Shown one piece after another: positions 4,128 through 10,028 of a DNA stretch of 64,000 bases (positions are counted from its first letter, which is position 1; each line of letters opens with the position of its first letter). Made by a program: the position numbers and the translations under genes. Source of the DNA: Kiloniellaceae bacterium (GTDB lineage Bacteria; Pseudomonadota; Alphaproteobacteria; Kiloniellales; J153); NCBI GenBank assembly GCA_021776115.1, contig JAJFGN010000004.1, positions 124,001-188,000 on the forward strand, written 5' to 3'. Under the pieces are notes generated by a model. That model worked only from the letters and a program-made list of their open reading frames with translations, searched no databases and was not told where the DNA came from.

Positions 4128-4955
4128 TTACTGGTTGACCGCCCGGGACGAGGACGGTTTACCGCCCGGCAAGGCCGGCCCCCCTTGGGCCCGGCGCGCG
4201 CCCGCATCGGCTTTCTCCTTCGGCAACGGCTCGGCGGCGAAGCGGCGCTCGAAGACCTGCAGCAAGGCCCAGCCGGACTCATTGATGTGCCCTAAGTAAT
4301 CGCGGTAGCGCGCGTCCTCGATGGGGCCGAAGATCTCGCTTTTCGCGGCTTCCGAGAACCCGACGATGGCGTTGAGCAGGGTGCGGATTTCGTGACCCAG
4401 GTCCTGGCTTTCCCAAACCCGGTCATTCAAGGCCGAGGGGCGGGGCACGCTATGTCCTTGCTCCAGGTCGGTTTCGGCCGCTTGGCGGCGGGCTACTTCC
4501 TTCGCCAGCCGGGTCCGCAGCCGGACTTCTTGCCGCTTCGACTCCGCCAATACGGCGGCCAGGGCCCAGATCGCCAGGAGCACGATCAAACGGTTCGCCA
4601 GGCCCGGACCGGAGAGCAGAGTCTGCACCAGTATCGAAGCCGTCGCGGCGCTCGAGGTCAGGACGGCCCCAAGCGCGACAAGGCCGCTGGCGATCGCCGC
4701 CAAGACATAGACGTCGCGCGGCCGCGCGAGCCACACCCCGAGAAAGACAAGGGAGAGATGCAAGGCGGCGGCCCAAACCCCAGCCGGCAGATAAACCTCC
4801 GCCATGAGGTTCGTGGCCGACAGGACCAGAATGCCGAGCAGCACCCGGGCGTTACCGAGCGGCAGGGCCCCCGGCGCTCGTGCCTGGGCCTGTTTTCGCG
4901 CCTGCCGGTTGTCGCCGGTGGACGCCAGCGCGCTCGTCACTCCTGTCTCCGCCAT
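4128..4955 (-). CDS. Membrane protein with an isolated histidine-kinase dimerisation-like domain
   Basis: The 275-residue protein has hydrophobic segments over roughly residues 36-140, enough for four or five membrane passes, then a charged helix (about 138-165) and a HisKA-like H-box, DLGHEIRTLLNAIVGFSE, with the candidate phospho-accepting His188. Kinases normally have P where this has L in the RTPLN motif. The HisKA half continues as IFGPIEDARYRDYLGHI, typical of alphaproteobacterial kinases, but the protein ends about 60 residues later. No HATPase domain (N, G1 or G2 boxes) follows. It may be a degenerate or regulatory kinase relative, such as a phosphotransfer or dimerisation decoy. The ATG at 4955 is followed by a polar N-terminus without signal peptide. 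No partner regulator is adjacent. Confidence 0.75.
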   Translation of the reverse strand: MAETGVTSALASTGDNRQARKQAQARAPGALPLGNARVLLGILVLSATNLMAEVYLPAGVWAAALHLSLVFLGVWLARPRDVYVLAAIASGLVALGAVLTSSAATASILVQTLLSGPGLANRLIVLLAIWALAAVLAESKRQEVRLRTRLAKEVARRQAAETDLEQGHSVPRPSALNDRVWESQDLGHEIRTLLNAIVGFSEAAKSEIFGPIEDARYRDYLGHINESGWALLQVFERRFAAEPLPKEKADAGARRAQGGPALPGGKPSSSRAVNQ

Positions 4956-5110
4956 ACCGAATACCCCCTAATAACACCCCTTGTTTCTCGAGACTCCCCC
5001 ATAGACTCTGTCGAAACACTATAACTAGTAGTGATTCGCATCGATTTGTCCACATCCTGAGTGGGAAATTTTATTAACGCGCGGCGTTTCATTCTGCGTG
5101 GGCCGATTTC

Positions 5111-5213
5111 GAGCTCTCGCCTTCGCGCTAGGTGGGACGGTCCGGCTTCGTAAGTTCGAAAAGGGGGATATCCAGTGCAATGGCTTCGACGCGCCGCGCT
5201 CGGCGTAAGTTTT
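5111..5213 (+). repeat. Leader direct repeat, copy A (upstream of paralog 1)
   Basis: About 100 bp covering the 5' untranslated region, ribosome-binding site (AAGGGGGA) and first codons of the gene at 5175 are nearly identical to 7671-7773, which precede the gene at 7735, at a constant offset of 2560 bp. Only a few bases differ. This shows that the promoter-proximal part was duplicated together with the gene start. Confidence 0.85.
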
Positions 5214-5792
5214 TTTGTCTTCATAAGTCATGCTTCGGCCCTCGCGCAGGGCACGGCCGGGCAGGTGCCTTGGCTGCCCGACGCCGTGACGGCAGGCGGA
5301 ACCGGCTTCGTCGAGGTTGAACTGAGCGCGGATACCGTCGTGCCCCTGCCGCCGGACCCGGGCGAAGCTGGAAAGGCGACCTTGGAAGGCATCGATTCGG
5401 ATGGCGACGGCCTGCGCGACGACGTGCAGCGCTACATCGCCTTTACCTTCGCGGACTCGGCGCGCGTGCGCGCCGCCGCCGCCGACTACGCCAAAAAGGT
5501 GCAGGAGACGTTCTTCGTCGGCATTGATCGAGCCAAAGCGGTGAACCTGGCGTCTGACATAAACCGATCGATCGAATGCATGAATTTTGTGCTGGGTAGT
5601 GATACTTACGACGCTTTAGTTAGTGCGCAGAAAGCGGGGCAGAACTTGAATGCAGAAGTGTTGAATACAGCGATCCGTTCTCGTTCGTACCTGGCCTACG
5701 ATGCTCAGTTGGCAGGTGGCGTTTATCGGTCCCTGCCGATCGCAGAGTGGAAGAAGAGCTGCACGTTCAATCCTGACGTACTGCCGAACTGA
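5175..5792 (+). CDS. Exported DSDGDG-motif protein, tandem paralog 1 of 5
   Basis: Function unknown. The 205-residue protein starts at GTG and has a signal peptide ending near SHASALAQ. A short stretch TAGGTGFVEVELSADT is the beginning of the N-terminal domain seen whole in paralog 5; it then jumps directly to VVPLPPDPGEAGKAT, so about 80 residues are missing. The shared core follows: GIDSDGDGLRDD, a loop with Asp at alternate positions like an EF-hand or dockerin calcium site, then QRYIAFTF and YAKKVQETFF. A variable part holds ECMNF with a Cys, and the conserved tail is RSRSYLAYDAQLAGGVYR...EWKKSC. The two cysteines could form a disulfide. Its variable part resembles paralog 4, while its leader and signal peptide resemble paralog 5. 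First gene of a run spaced 13-15 bp apart. Confidence 0.85.
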   Translation: MQWLRRAALGVSFFVFISHASALAQGTAGQVPWLPDAVTAGGTGFVEVELSADTVVPLPPDPGEAGKATLEGIDSDGDGLRDDVQRYIAFTFADSARVRAAAADYAKKVQETFFVGIDRAKAVNLASDINRSIECMNFVLGSDTYDALVSAQKAGQNLNAEVLNTAIRSRSYLAYDAQLAGGVYRSLPIAEWKKSCTFNPDVLPN

Positions 5793-5807
5793 GAGAGGAA
5801 ACATCCA

Positions 5808-6389
5808 GTGAAGTGGGTTCTACGCGCCGCGTTCGGCGCTAGTTTTGTTGTGTTGTTGGGTTACGCTCCGGTCCTAGCGGACAGCGGCGGGGCTCCGGTG
5901 GCGGTGCCGCAGGAGCTACCGGCCGCACTGGCCGAGGCACCCCTGCCGCCGGACCCTGGCGAGGCCGGAAAGGCGACCCTGGGGGGTATCGATTCCGACG
6001 GCGACGGCCTGCGCGACGACATCCAACGCTATATCGCCTTTACCTTCCCGAATTCGGCGCGCATCCGCGCCGCCGCCGCCGACTACGCCAAAAAAGTGCA
6101 GGAGACGTTCTTCGTCGGCAGCGACCGCGTATTTGCCGTGAACTTGGCGGCAGAGATTCTGCGGGCAAAGGAATGTCTCTATTTTCTTTCAGGAGGTCAA
6201 ACATATGAAGACCTGCAGAACGCGCGACGAGCAAAGGACAGGACCTTGGCTGAGATATTGAATACAAAAATACGCTCCCGCAGTTACCTGGCCTACGACG
6301 CCCAACTCGCTGGCGGCGTTTACAAGGTGCTTCCCGAATCGGAGTGGAAGAGCGGCTGCACGTTCAATCCTGACGCGCTGCCGAACTGA
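5808..6389 (+). CDS. Exported DSDGDG-motif protein, tandem paralog 2 of 5
   Basis: Function unknown. The 193-residue protein uses a GTG start preceded by GAGAGGAA and has a signal peptide (MKWVLRAAFGASFVVLLG) ending near VLAD. The following DSGGAPVAVPQELP matches only the last part of the N-terminal domain of paralog 5, so this copy has lost nearly all of that domain. The core (PPDPGEAGKATLGG, DSDGDGLRDD, YAKKVQETFFVG) and tail (RSRSYLAYDAQLAGGVYK) are conserved. The variable segment (KECLYFLSGGQTYEDL) resembles that of paralog 5. It starts 15 bp after paralog 1, so the two are probably co-transcribed. Confidence 0.85.
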   Translation: MKWVLRAAFGASFVVLLGYAPVLADSGGAPVAVPQELPAALAEAPLPPDPGEAGKATLGGIDSDGDGLRDDIQRYIAFTFPNSARIRAAAADYAKKVQETFFVGSDRVFAVNLAAEILRAKECLYFLSGGQTYEDLQNARRAKDRTLAEILNTKIRSRSYLAYDAQLAGGVYKVLPESEWKSGCTFNPDALPN

Positions 6390-6402
6390 GGAGACCGGGA
6401 AG

Positions 6403-6990
6403 ATGGGCGTCAATCAAAATCTGACCCGAACACTTATTTTTGCGGCAGCTTTTGTTCCATACTTGGCTGCTGCCGGTGACGACAATAACGATGATCATGA
6501 AAGCATTCCGGGCCGCTTGCCCGTGACACTGGCCGAGGCGCCCCTGCCGCCGGACCCCGGCGAGGCCGGCAAGGCCACCCTAGCGGGCATCGATTCCGAT
6601 AACGATGGCGTGCGCGACGACATCCAACGCTATATCGCCTTCACCTTCCCGGACTCGGCGCGCGTGCGTGCGGCGGCCTCCGACTATGCCAAAAAGGTGC
6701 AGGAAACCTTCTTCATCGGCGAGGACCGGGTCAAAGCTGTGAACTTGGCAGCGGTCTTGGGTCGGGCGAGACAATGCATCAGTTTTCTACACGGTAGCGA
6801 GACAGGTGAGGCCCTGCGACGCGCCATCAAAGCGACTGATGAACTTCGAACTCGGGTCTTAGATACAGGAGCGCGTTCTCGCAGCTACTTAGCGTATAAC
6901 GCTCTTTTGGCCGGAGGTGTGTTCCGGGTTCTACCGGAATCCGAATGGAAGAAAGGCTGCGCATTCGACCCCGACGCGCTGCCGAACTGA
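6403..6990 (+). CDS. Exported DSDGDG-motif protein, tandem paralog 3 of 5
   Basis: Function unknown. The 195-residue protein has an ATG start behind a good GAGGAGA site and a signal peptide (MGVNQNLTRTLIFAAAFVP) nearly identical to that of paralog 4 but unlike those of paralogs 1, 2 and 5. An acidic stretch (GDDNNDDHE) follows cleavage. The calcium-loop-like motif reads DSDNDGVRDD. The variable segment (RARQCISFLHGSETGEAL) is the most divergent of the five, and the tail has YNALLAGGVFR for the usual YDAQLAGGVYR. It lies 13 bp after paralog 2 and 13 bp before paralog 4. Confidence 0.85.
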   Translation: MGVNQNLTRTLIFAAAFVPYLAAAGDDNNDDHESIPGRLPVTLAEAPLPPDPGEAGKATLAGIDSDNDGVRDDIQRYIAFTFPDSARVRAAASDYAKKVQETFFIGEDRVKAVNLAAVLGRARQCISFLHGSETGEALRRAIKATDELRTRVLDTGARSRSYLAYNALLAGGVFRVLPESEWKKGCAFDPDALPN

Positions 6991-7003
6991 GGAGACCGGG
7001 AAG

Positions 7004-7585
7004 ATGGGCGTTAATCGGAATCTGACCCGAACGCTTATTTTTGCGGCAGCTTTTGTTCCATACCTGGCTGCCGCCGATAACGACGATCTTGAAAACATTC
7101 CGGATCGCATACCCGTGACATTGGCGGACGTGCTGTCCTTGCCGCCCGATCCGGGCGAGGCCGGAAAGGCGACCCTGGAGGGTATCGATTCCGACGGCGA
7201 CGGCCTGCGCGATGACGTGCAGCGCTATATCGCCTTCACCTTCCCGGACTCGGCGCGCGTCCGCGCCGCCGCCGCCGTCTACGCCAAAAAGGTGCAGGAA
7301 ACCTTCTCCGTCGGTAACGACCGGGTCAAAGCCATGAACTTAGCGGCGGAGATAAACAGATCGATCGAGTGTATGAATTTTGCTCATGGCGGCAATACCT
7401 ACGAGACCTTGGTTATCGCGCGGCGAGCGGGCGAGAGTCTACGTGCGGAGGTATTGAACACAGCGGATCGTTCCCGGTCTTACCTAGCCTACGATGCTCA
7501 GTTAGCAGGCGGCGTTTACCGCTCCCTGCCAATGCCCGAGTGGAAGAAGAGCTGCACGTTCGATCTCGACGCGCTGCCGAATTGA
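7004..7585 (+). CDS. Exported DSDGDG-motif protein, tandem paralog 4 of 5
   Basis: Function unknown. The 193-residue protein starts at ATG 7004 behind GAGGAGACCGGGAAG, the same translation start region as paralog 3. A longer in-frame reading from 6917 overlaps the preceding gene and is not credible. Signal peptide MGVNRNLTRTLIFAAAFVP, then DNDDLENIPDR. The core carries DSDGDGLRDD and YAKKVQETFSVG. The variable part (INRSIECMNFAHGG) closely matches paralog 1 in protein and DNA, although their 5' ends differ, so the two are mosaic. A 149-bp gap with a new leader follows before paralog 5. Confidence 0.85.
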   Translation: MGVNRNLTRTLIFAAAFVPYLAAADNDDLENIPDRIPVTLADVLSLPPDPGEAGKATLEGIDSDGDGLRDDVQRYIAFTFPDSARVRAAAAVYAKKVQETFSVGNDRVKAMNLAAEINRSIECMNFAHGGNTYETLVIARRAGESLRAEVLNTADRSRSYLAYDAQLAGGVYRSLPMPEWKKSCTFDLDALPN

Positions 7586-7670
7586 GGCCGCGCCGAAGCT
7601 AACGTCCAACGCTTGACACTTTTTGGTCTTAACCCTGGAACGAATCTTGTGGCATCCTATAGTCGGTCTC

Positions 7671-7773
7671 GACCTCTCGCCTTCGCGCTAGGTGGGACGG
7701 CCCGGCTTCGCAAGTTCGAAAAGGGGGATATCCAGTGCAATGGCTTCGACGCGCCGCGCTCGGCGCAAGTTTC
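7671..7773 (+). repeat. Leader direct repeat, copy B (upstream of paralog 5)
   Basis: This is the partner of 5111-5213, covering the leader, the AAGGGGGA ribosome-binding site and the first codons of the gene at 7735. A TTGACA hexamer at 7613-7618 lies just upstream and could be a -35 element, but I cannot place a convincing -10 at normal spacing. The repeat suggests that paralog 5 plus the hydrolase gene form a second transcription unit and that the 5' end was copied as part of the amplification. Confidence 0.8.
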
Positions 7774-8595
7774 CTTGTGTTCCTGGGGCAGGCTCCGGCC
7801 CTCGCGCAAAGCACGGACGTGTCTTGGGCACCCGGCGCCGTCACGGCGGAGGTCACGGCGGGCGGGACCGGCTTCGTCGAGGTGGAATTGAGCGCGGAGA
7901 CCGCCTTGATCGGCGCGCTTCTAGAGGTCTCGCCAAGCCTGCGCAGTTTCGCCGGGGCCGCGCCGGCCAACCTGGGCGACCTGGGGGCGGGGGAGACCCG
8001 CACCGTCACGCTGGGCTTCGGGACCCTGTGGGACGACCTGCCCAGTGAGTCCTTCACGGTCACCGGCACGCTGCGGGTCTTGGCCGACAGTGGCGGGTCT
8101 CCTGTAGCCTTGCTGCAAGAGCTGCCGATCACGCTGACCGTCGTGCCCTTGCCGCCGGACCCGGGCGAGGCCGGCAAGGCGACCCTGGAGGGCATCGATT
8201 CCGACGGCGACGGCCTGCGCGACGACATTCAGCGCTATATCGCCTTCACCTTCGCCAACTCCCCGAGCGTCCGCGCCGCCGCCGCCGCCTACGCCAAGAA
8301 GGTGCAGGAGACGTTTTTCGTCGGTAACGATCGGGTCAAAGCGGTGAACTTGGCGGCTGATGTTCAGAGGACCAGGCATTGCTTTGATTTTCTTTTTGGT
8401 GGTCAGACAGTTGAAGACCTGTTGCGATCGCACCGTGCGACAGGCGCGCTCTTGGCTGAGGTTCTGAATACAGAGATCCGTTCCCGCAGCTATTTGGCAT
8501 ATGACGCCCAGCTTGCTGGCGGCGTGTATCCGGTTCTGCCCGAGTCCGAATGGAAAAAGGGCTGCAGTTTCGACCCCGACGCACTGCCAAACTGA
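7735..8595 (+). CDS. Exported two-domain DSDGDG-motif protein, paralog 5 of 5 (full-length form)
   Basis: Function unknown. The 286-residue protein has a GTG start, a signal peptide to about residue 25 (ending APALAQ), and a full N-terminal domain over roughly 26-135 that looks all-beta and Ig-like: GGTGFVEVELSAETALIGALL, then GDLGAGETRTVTLGF and ESFTVTGTLRVLAD. The shared core begins at PLPPDPGEAGKAT with DSDGDGLRDD. The variable segment is RTRHCFDFLFGGQTVEDL, and the tail ends EWKKGCSFDPDALPN. The remnants of this N-terminal domain in paralogs 1 and 2 suggest that this is the ancestral form and the others are shortened copies. It is 13 bp upstream of the hydrolase gene, so the two are likely partners. 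Confidence 0.87.
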   Translation: MQWLRRAALGASFLVFLGQAPALAQSTDVSWAPGAVTAEVTAGGTGFVEVELSAETALIGALLEVSPSLRSFAGAAPANLGDLGAGETRTVTLGFGTLWDDLPSESFTVTGTLRVLADSGGSPVALLQELPITLTVVPLPPDPGEAGKATLEGIDSDGDGLRDDIQRYIAFTFANSPSVRAAAAAYAKKVQETFFVGNDRVKAVNLAADVQRTRHCFDFLFGGQTVEDLLRSHRATGALLAEVLNTEIRSRSYLAYDAQLAGGVYPVLPESEWKKGCSFDPDALPN

Positions 8596-8608
8596 GGAGG
8601 GTAACAGG

Positions 8609-9811
8609 ATGCAACGTGCCTCAATAGCCGCATTGGCGCTAGCAGGATTGATATCGTTTGGTGGCGGGGCGAATGCACAACAACCCCTCGATCCGCAGCT
8701 TTTTTGCGGAAAGCGTTCGGTTGTTGTGTTCGGTAACGGCGTTCTCACGACACAAGACTCTGCTACGAAGTCATTGGATGTTGTGCGCAGAGCAATTCGG
8801 GTCTCGCTACCTCCTGAAGAATTCGATTTACTGAACTTCGAGAGCGACGCCGTCTATAATCCAACCAATGGCCCCCTGCTCGACCTCTTAGAGGCTTACC
8901 TTCAAGATATCGCCACGGACACACGCGAATACTGGCTGATATTGGCGCGGATAGTCCCGGCCCCGCTCGGGTTTGAAGACATAATTACCGACATCATCTC
9001 GGCCGCCGCGCTCGCGGCCAGCCCGATCCAGGAGAACCATGTCGAGTTCTATCGCTCGAGCATTAGGCAAGGCAAAAAGGTTATCCTCGTCGCCCATTCG
9101 CAGGGCAATTTTTTCGGCAATCTGTCTTACGACGCCCTGACGCCGGATGAGCGGCAAAGCTTCGGCATCGTCTCCGCCGCCAACCCGGATAGTTTCGTGG
9201 CCGGCGGCGGTCCACACACGACGCTCCATGAGGACTTCGTCATCGAGGCGATCGACGCCGCCAAGTTTTTGGCGTTGCAGCCGCGCCCACAGGCCTCCAA
9301 CTTCACCAATGGCGTCAACACCGACCCACTAGGCCATTCTTTCCTGGATGCCTACATGGAAGGGCCGGGCAGCCGCGCTAGGATTATCGGCCACGTATTA
9401 GGGACCTTGGACGGGCTGGTTCAGCCGGGCGAGGAAGAAGAGGACGGCGTGATTACGGTCTTCGCGGGCTTGGGCAGCGCTGTGCGGGCCATCTTTTTCG
9501 AGCCCCCGCTCTCGCCCGGCGGATCGCCCGTTGAAACGCCCGCGGGGTCCAGCGTTTCCGTCGCCTGCGAGGATCTGAGAGAAGGAAATTACGCCTATCA
9601 GATGATCTTGAACGGAATACCGGAGCCCCTGCCGCGCGTCGTGTACGTGATAGAGGCGGGCGATAAGGTCGCGAGTGGGATTTATCAGTTTGGCGAAGGC
9701 GATATCTTCCCACCGGACGCCCCCGACGGACCGGCGTTTGACGTCGAGGTGACCGGCAATCAGGAAGACGGGTTCCGGTTCGAGGTTCTCTCGGCCCCCA
9801 ACACACCCTAA
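8609..9811 (+). CDS. Secreted serine-hydrolase-like protein (alpha/beta-hydrolase fold, AHSQGN elbow)
   Basis: The 400-residue protein starts at ATG 8609 behind GAGGAGGG, with a signal peptide ending near GGANAQQ. The segment KKVILVAHSQGNFFGNLSY is a strand-nucleophile elbow-helix with candidate catalytic Ser164. The usual GxSxG reads AxSxG here, a variant found in some lipase-like families. A candidate acid (Asp in ANPDSF, about residue 194) and His (DPLGHSFLDAYM, about residue 243) follow in the expected order. The C-terminal 130 residues are acidic and unassigned. Substrate unknown; lipase, esterase or acylhydrolase activity is inference. It is the last gene after the five paralogs and probably shares a transcript with paralog 5. 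A frame extending back to 8501 overlaps paralog 5 and is rejected. Confidence 0.8.
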   Translation: MQRASIAALALAGLISFGGGANAQQPLDPQLFCGKRSVVVFGNGVLTTQDSATKSLDVVRRAIRVSLPPEEFDLLNFESDAVYNPTNGPLLDLLEAYLQDIATDTREYWLILARIVPAPLGFEDIITDIISAAALAASPIQENHVEFYRSSIRQGKKVILVAHSQGNFFGNLSYDALTPDERQSFGIVSAANPDSFVAGGGPHTTLHEDFVIEAIDAAKFLALQPRPQASNFTNGVNTDPLGHSFLDAYMEGPGSRARIIGHVLGTLDGLVQPGEEEEDGVITVFAGLGSAVRAIFFEPPLSPGGSPVETPAGSSVSVACEDLREGNYAYQMILNGIPEPLPRVVYVIEAGDKVASGIYQFGEGDIFPPDAPDGPAFDVEVTGNQEDGFRFEVLSAPNTP

Positions 9812-10028
9812 GAGGGTCTCCCCCAACTCCCACCGGCCTGCGATATCCCAGCCTTTGGGAGGGCGTGCGCGCGGACGCCATCCGCTTGTTCGCACCTGCA
9901 AAATTTGCTAGTTTTCGGTCAGGTATTTCGTCGAATCCGGGGGGCTTCACGCCACGCACCGGCGTTTCGGAGGCGGCTCGTGCGGCGGGCCGGATTTTCG
10001 CCGTTTTTCAGCCAGTTAGGACCATCCC

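Follow-up and report, generated by a model that had tools for sequence, protein, structure and literature searches.

Five tandem exported proteins beside a secreted serine hydrolase in a Kiloniellaceae bacterium: candidate binding inhibitors of the enzyme

Why would a bacterium keep five copies of a small exported protein in front of a single secreted enzyme? The question is raised by a stretch of 64,000 nucleotides (the window) of an alphaproteobacterium of the family Kiloniellaceae (assembly GCA_021776115.1, contig JAJFGN010000004.1, positions 124,001 to 188,000), in which five exported paralogues (5175-8595) are followed, after a gap of 13 bp, by the gene of a secreted serine hydrolase (8609-9811). 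The initial annotation, which was made from the sequence alone, proposed that the small protein is a partner of the enzyme and left open whether it acts as a chaperone or as an immunity protein. The six genes, the 13-bp gap, the shared core and the two cysteines of each paralogue are as it described them. Here we show that comparative genomics strongly supports the predicted partner relation, and we argue that the five small proteins are probably, though by no means assuredly, exported binding inhibitors (immunity-like proteins) of the adjacent hydrolase. The observations directly supporting this answer are the structure of the genes, the intact catalytic triad, the signal-like N-termini, the occurrence of the hydrolase only together with a core and the keeping of cores alone.

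Occurrence of the pair across genomes

All five paralogues contain a common 148-residue core with the motifs PPDPGEAGKAT, DSDGDGxRDD, YAKKVQETF and RSRSYLAY, in this order. A core-based scan of contigs yielded at least 43 loci, mostly from metagenome-assembled genomes (MAGs), in which binning errors are possible. The listed loci, with the exception of a few that carry no phylum label, were assigned by their records or by the tree tool to ten phyla (Pseudomonadota, Nitrospinota, Planctomycetota, Thermodesulfobacteriota, Myxococcota, Bacteroidota, Patescibacteria, Fibrobacterota, Campylobacterota and Bdellovibrionota). Among the matches listed, profile searches found the hydrolase in 34 of the 43 loci, on the same strand as the core and downstream of a core in all of them except L047. 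Of 36 core-to-hydrolase distances 28 were within 71-167 nt and eight within 261-708 nt, two of the larger ones belonging to the second pieces of split hydrolases (L021 and L033). In six loci (L017, L019, L033, L044, L045 and L053) the two genes overlap in the sequence ATGA.

To remove the bias of searching with the core, a phylum sample of 398 genomes, which overlaps the locus genomes, was searched with each profile at E 1e-5. The hydrolase was found in 14 genomes and the core in 17, and all 14 hydrolase genomes had both (Fisher 3e-23). The three core-only genomes (G270, G334 and G349; 88, 70 and 90% complete) have core matches that share coordinates with loci L029, L022 and L027, respectively. 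In one genome of the sample the hydrolase row (G100:C25) and the core row (G100:C13) are both near contig starts and are not shown to be adjacent. Taking one locus per genome, 39 of the 43 listed loci led to 39 genomes, all of which had the core and 31 the hydrolase (44 rows). Only three of these 44 rows had no core row nearby: two are at contig ends (G063:C190, where the contig end was confirmed, and G064:C331), and the third is weak (G086:C20:79972, 72 bits).

The loci found by way of the hydrolase, one on a plasmid and four on IMG/VR contigs, gave the same picture, since each of the five is immediately preceded by a core in the same orientation (34.5-123.8 bits). Plasmids contributed one record with the hydrolase, from Cupriavidus, which overlaps a core upstream, and one with the core, from Vibrio penaeicida, in which no hydrolase was found within 6 kb. 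The core-based search of plasmids and IMG/VR turned up two loci with no hydrolase in the DNA examined, this plasmid (L137) and an IMG/VR contig (L139). On the Vibrio plasmid (pIFO15640) the orphan core adjoins genes of a polysaccharide lyase of family 7 and of chemotaxis.

The distances between cores and those between hydrolases were correlated over 29 adjacent pairs (r 0.80, reached in 0 of 2000 permutations, without control for the species tree). The proposed partnership is thus borne out by the presence of the core in every hydrolase genome of the phylum sample, by the spread of the pair over ten phyla and by the overlapping genes; its weaker side is that nine of the 43 listed loci have a core alone. 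Lone cores were one of the two observations which, according to the initial annotation, would together speak against the partnership, the other being the lack of a predicted interface.

The two protein families

The window hydrolase has a signal-peptide-like N-terminus and an AHSQGN motif. In an alignment of 31 rows the presumed catalytic columns are occupied by serine (Ser164) in 31 rows, aspartate (Asp209) in 31 and histidine (His243) in 29, the remaining two rows being gapped. For structural comparison we used a fused model of the pair of locus L020, in which the hydrolase part had a cutinase as best re-aligned match (Z 13.3, rmsd 3.5, 176 residues). The window hydrolase and its relatives thus have the triad, the nucleophile elbow and the fold of the alpha/beta serine hydrolase superfamily. 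Weaker Foldseek rows of the fused model included pancreatic lipase (E 3e-4, with a TM of 0.20 or less), PlaB and RavL of Legionella (E 0.02-0.03), and PDB entry 4o5p (E 0.015), which is titled uncharacterized and which we take to be Tle1. Many rows were chains of diphtheria toxin and pilin (80-130 columns, E 0.001 to 0.06); these probably reflect a beta-sandwich in the N- or C-terminal regions, and were not used. Because the triad is conserved and the structural matches are of cutinase or lipase type, the hydrolase is likely to be a lipase- or cutinase-like esterase. Sequence libraries did not place it: the best Pfam score of the window protein (Abhydrolase_6, 14.7 bits) was below the cut-off of 26.3, NCBIfam gave no match, and the best E-values of 30 relatives were 0.0012 (Pfam) and 0.0028 (NCBIfam). 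By a home-made rule, 29 of 34 hydrolase frames or pieces begin with a signal-like sequence, 26 of them ordinary and three lipobox-like.

The core, modelled for the fifth window copy with an alignment of 59 rows, is predicted to consist of seven helices (pLDDT 94.6, pTM 0.90). The model places the DSDGDG loop between helices 1 and 2. This acidic loop is nearly invariant in the 59 rows, and its DxDxDG pattern would be compatible with calcium binding; the Pfam family TSP3_bac matched one of the 59 rows, weakly (E 0.025). Foldseek comparison of the core model with the PDB gave no match at E 0.001 among 98 matches at E 10, and the best re-aligned matches were designed helical proteins (Z 6.5), which is uninformative for helical folds; we do not take this result as a sign of a new fold. 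The same signal rule, which overlooks some visible lipoboxes, classified 61 cores as having an ordinary signal (41), a lipobox (8) or none (12, several of which are cut by contig ends). In the window copies no lipobox is visible by eye.

The initial annotation did not recognise the core family as characterised, and its suggestion of a profile search led to the same result: the curated cut-offs of Pfam and NCBIfam were not reached by any of these six window proteins, and neither core nor hydrolase was given a convincing family by these or the other sequence libraries. The core family therefore appears to be uncharacterised, at least as far as library searches can tell. The weak rows of TY-Chap1 (0.11) and ORF_2_N (0.12), as well as single-row matches in Pfam, NCBIfam and PADLOC down to E 0.0003, were judged to be due to chance. 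The genes are called hypothetical in the two annotated records examined, and no title naming the pair was among the top-ranked matches of our literature searches, which does not prove its absence from print.

The quality of the fused model (pLDDT 73.3, pTM 0.68) was lower. It has a short strand (251-253) within the otherwise helical core and, as the cutinase alignments begin at residue 251, it hints that this core strand might lie on the sheet of the enzyme. We give this hint little weight; in the underlying alignment the hydrolase N-termini were misplaced onto the core in 15 of 36 rows.

Some members of the two families carry additional regions. In Zetaproteobacteria the cores of L021, L024, L025, L034 and L037 have long N-terminal repeat regions resembling hyalin repeats, and the hydrolases of L025, L026, L031 and L035 have C-terminal repeats, which we take to be NHL-like. 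It looks as if surface domains had been shuffled around the same pair in this group.

Cores without an enzyme and the function of the pair

Some cores stand alone. The hydrolase was not found, among the matches listed for profile searches of the DNA around the locus, in nine of the 43 core loci, and it was not found at E 1e-5 in eight of the 39 core-bearing genomes, some of which are incomplete assemblies. In L018, L036 and L050 at least 5.5 kb of DNA was available downstream of the last core.

Two comparisons of related loci are informative. In Bacteriovoracaceae, L046 and L050 represent the same locus (seven flanking proteins 97-100% identical), L046 with one core and a hydrolase, L050 with three cores and a hydrolase remnant. 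The remnant, 90% identical, covers only the final 227 nt of a hydrolase frame of 1665 nt, so L050 has lost the enzyme and retained three cores. The L050 cores are 78-96% identical to that of L046, with dN/dS values of 0.09-0.14. In Ghiorsea, the near-identical loci L027 and L029 share flanking genes with L034; L034 has a core and a hydrolase, whereas L027 and L029 lack a hydrolase and carry three cores. Of these, the second is 94% identical in protein sequence to the hydrolase-linked core of L034 (dS 0.30, dN/dS 0.08). Since dS was 1.41 and 1.52 for two flanking genes compared between L029 and L034, the simplest reading is that the second core was transferred after the lineages had split. The lone cores are more easily read as orphan immunity genes than as unrelated ones.

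In four further loci (L019, first copy; L021; L033; L039) a truncated or split hydrolase stands beside an intact core, which is consistent with decay of the enzyme and retention of the core, or with MAG error; these were not counted as evidence. Two core domains are found in one open frame in L036 (5845-6840) and in L139 (4536-5441), with no hydrolase in the DNA examined.

An enzyme that was not found without its partner, and a partner that is kept, multiplied and at least once transferred without the enzyme, are to be expected if the partner is an inhibitor or immunity protein. In the mechanism that we envisage, the hydrolase would be exported by the Sec pathway and perhaps onward by a type II secretion system (T2SS). 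Paralogue 5, which adjoins the enzyme, is by its position likely to be the cognate inhibitor, and the other four are likely to be retained or diversified variants that could neutralise the hydrolase versions of relatives. Direct binding, inhibition, the substrate, the antibacterial role and calcium binding are the steps of this scheme that we infer.

Onward secretion by the T2SS is suggested by its secretin gene, GspD, which was above the cut-off in 30 of 36 genomes (35 with the pair and the core-only G021). In the phylum sample GspD was present in 13 of the 14 pair-bearing genomes as compared to 210 of 398 overall (Fisher 0.0019), a link confounded by ancestry, as nine of the 14 belong to one family (f45). 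The gene of the type VI secretion system (T6SS) sheath, VipB/TssC, was found in only eight of 36 genomes, therefore we rejected the T6SS as the common delivery route. The genome of the window is one of the eight (G000:C82:22647-23546, E 9e-133); the gene was not found in G021, which is of the same genus.

In the main rival explanation the core would serve the hydrolase as its own periplasmic foldase or secretion chaperone, similar to Lif/LipH, and the extra copies would raise dosage or serve several clients. This would account for the core in 14 of 14 hydrolase genomes of the phylum sample and in five of five hydrolase-found loci, for coupled genes with the core first, for an enzyme that looks Sec-exported, for a core predicted to be all-helical, and for the frequency of GspD, which is expected for lipases secreted by the T2SS. 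A foldase, however, predicts that the enzyme depends on the core, not that the core persists alone: a foldase without a client should decay, yet eight core-bearing genomes had no detectable hydrolase, and the L050/L046 and L027/L034 comparisons show cores retained, amplified or transferred without the enzyme. Five foldases for one enzyme would also be unusual. We consider this explanation unlikely, and on the choice that the initial annotation had left open the evidence favours an immunity protein or inhibitor over a chaperone. Quite unlikely, in our view, is also a single extracellular complex of core and hydrolase, in which the domain with the acidic loop would anchor the enzyme to a surface or polymer, or activate it there, and the paralogues would alter targeting. 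The near-invariant loop, the correlated distances and the varied N-terminal regions of cores and C-terminal regions of hydrolases would fit such a complex, but it leaves unexplained the cores without hydrolase and the loss of a hydrolase beside several cores. That the two genes merely travel together without functional link is very improbable: the cassette is accessory, the core occurring in two of 61 genomes of the order and the site being empty in the same-genus genome G020, but strict co-occurrence and tight adjacency were seen in genomes of ten phyla.

Several points weigh against the inhibitor reading. As MAGs predominate, some hydrolase absences may be assembly gaps. The first core of L027 and the hydrolase-linked core of L037 have 88% identity, yet their dS of 1.52 means that no recent exchange is shown; for the third core of L027 no hydrolase-linked relative exceeds 63%. 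We looked for dN/dS above 1 and found none where it was computable, several comparisons being saturated in dS. The window array looks duplicated locally rather than collected from relatives: in the tree its five paralogues cluster together with the core of L013 only (support 100/100). The order is reversed in L047, where the hydrolase comes first. The enzyme has a Sec-type signal, and the sheath gene was found in only eight of 36 genomes, that of the window among them; T6SS effectors usually lack a Sec signal. Finally, binding, inhibition and toxicity are predictions. The pattern typical of toxin-immunity pairs was nevertheless found, with exceptions to adjacency: the enzyme was not found without the partner, and the partner occurs as orphan, in arrays and exchanged.

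It is instructive to compare the pair with known systems, as far as the excerpts of the published descriptions go. The best reading is by analogy: the pair may work like TslA/TilA or Tle/Tli, sequence matches to such families not having been found. In Staphylococcus, where TslA is delivered by a type VII secretion system (T7SS), a variable number of tandem lipoprotein genes precedes the lipase gene, and inhibition is proven (PMC10730906). The likeness lies in a secreted lipase-type enzyme, a small exported partner, a tandem partner array with the lipase gene at its 3' end and, as predicted for the window pair, an enzyme that acts on the membrane from outside. The window pair differs in the Sec-type signal of its enzyme, in that proof of inhibition exists for TslA/TilA, and in the Pfam families reported, which include DUF576, the domain of TilA, neither for the 59 core rows (14 families) nor for the five full window paralogues. 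With the Tle/Tli pairs of the T6SS it shares an alpha/beta-hydrolase encoded with a periplasmic or lipoprotein partner, and differs from them in the signal-peptide-like N-terminus of the enzyme and in the rarity of the sheath gene. To Lif/LipH and LipA the pair is similar in that a helical, exported partner is encoded next to a lipase-type enzyme with Sec export and that a T2SS secretin is common; unlike Lif/LipH, the cores persist without the enzyme, and no foldase family was among the Pfam and NCBIfam matches reported. The orphan immunity gene arrays in T6SS clusters of Vibrio cholerae (PMC5361080) resemble our enzyme-less arrays, one partner of which is close to the enzyme-linked partner of another genome. 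Delivery differs, the window array looks duplicated in place, and the likeness is one of description.

More tentatively, and as something possible rather than probable, the pair could be an undescribed, widely spread antibacterial system: a lipase-like toxin secreted by Sec and probably the T2SS, without an injection machine, and an exported helical immunity protein without clear match in the PDB, whose variants are duplicated, kept or acquired against the enzymes of neighbours. If the inhibitor reading is right, genes that are called hypothetical in the two annotated records and are spread over ten phyla, including those of anammox planctomycetes, Zetaproteobacteria, Nitrospina and Bacteriovoracaceae, would encode an enzyme-antidote system, i.e. 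a lipase-type toxin/immunity pair not tied to the T6SS or the T7SS. This reading, if true, would also offer a ready test with two genes, a single enzyme and its partner, and with naturally occurring orphan partners whose specificities are predicted. Should the foldase explanation hold instead, the cores would represent a new class of dedicated chaperone.

The array in the window and its surroundings

The features of the locus are collected in Table 1. In the genome of the window the core profile had no match outside these five genes, and the hydrolase query had a single match. Measured against copy 5 over the 148-residue core, the identity of copies 1-4 is 73-78%, and each paralogue has exactly two cysteines at equivalent positions. 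The motifs of the core are shared with exceptions: copy 3 has DSDNDG and diverges after RSRSYLAY, and copy 4 has ETFS. Identity between the paralogues was lowest in helices 3 and 4 (0.56 and 0.41, as compared to 0.76-0.94 in the other five measured segments), and this variable part could be a recognition surface. Copy 5 alone has a long extra N-terminal region, presumably Ig-like, of which copies 1 and 2 keep fragments only; copy 1 resembles copy 5 with most of this region removed by an in-frame deletion. Copies 1 and 5 also share a leader (88% identity), so duplication accounts for at least part of the growth of the array.

Table 1. Features of the array, the hydrolase gene and the cassette (window coordinates).
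Feature	Position	Strand	Basis or remark
Core paralogue 1, exported, 205 aa, GTG start	5175..5792	+	sequence
Core paralogue 2, exported, 193 aa, GTG start	5808..6389	+	sequence
Core paralogue 3, exported, 195 aa, ATG start	6403..6990	+	tree sister is the lone core of L013 (same genus)
Core paralogue 4, exported, 193 aa, ATG start	7004..7585	+	sequence
Core paralogue 5, exported, 286 aa, GTG start	7735..8595	+	longest N-terminal region; adjoins hydrolase
DSDGDG loop of paralogue 5, putative calcium-type acidic loop	8197..8214	+	sequence; conserved in 59-row core alignment
Predicted helices 3-4 of paralogue 5 core (core residues 62-105)	8332..8463	+	most variable between paralogues
Secreted alpha/beta serine hydrolase, 400 aa, full catalytic triad	8609..9811	+	conservation; homologous L020 fold
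Codon of Ser164, nucleophile (AHSQGN)	9098..9100	+	conservation
Codon of Asp209, putatively catalytic	9233..9235	+	conservation
Codon of His243, putatively catalytic	9335..9337	+	conservation
Leader repeat, before and into paralogue 1	5104..5259	+	88% identical to 7664-7819
Second leader repeat copy, before and into paralogue 5	7664..7819	+	88% identical to 5104-5259
Whole accessory cassette	5073..9882	.	missing in same-genus G020; alignment to 5072, resumes at 9883

The hydrolase frame opens with ATG at 8609, after the stop codon of paralogue 5, whose last base is 8595. No sigma-70-type promoter was found, with 1.6 expected. The array and the hydrolase gene are flanked by ssb and gyrA (names assigned from the translations). 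Within the genus this site is found in three states: empty in G020, where 51 bp lie between the aligned flanks, with a single core in G021, on the contig of L013, and with five cores and the hydrolase in the window. In G022, of the same genus, the core was not found.

Two further open reading frames were noted near the site. The minus strand of the window (4128-4955) encodes a 275-aa protein with a motif resembling histidine-kinase dimerisation sequences (HEIRTLLNAIVGFSE) and no visible ATPase domain; G020 and G021 have alignable DNA at this position. G020 has an extra frame of 426 aa between uvrA and ssb (L135, 3055-4332, minus strand), which is missing from the window.

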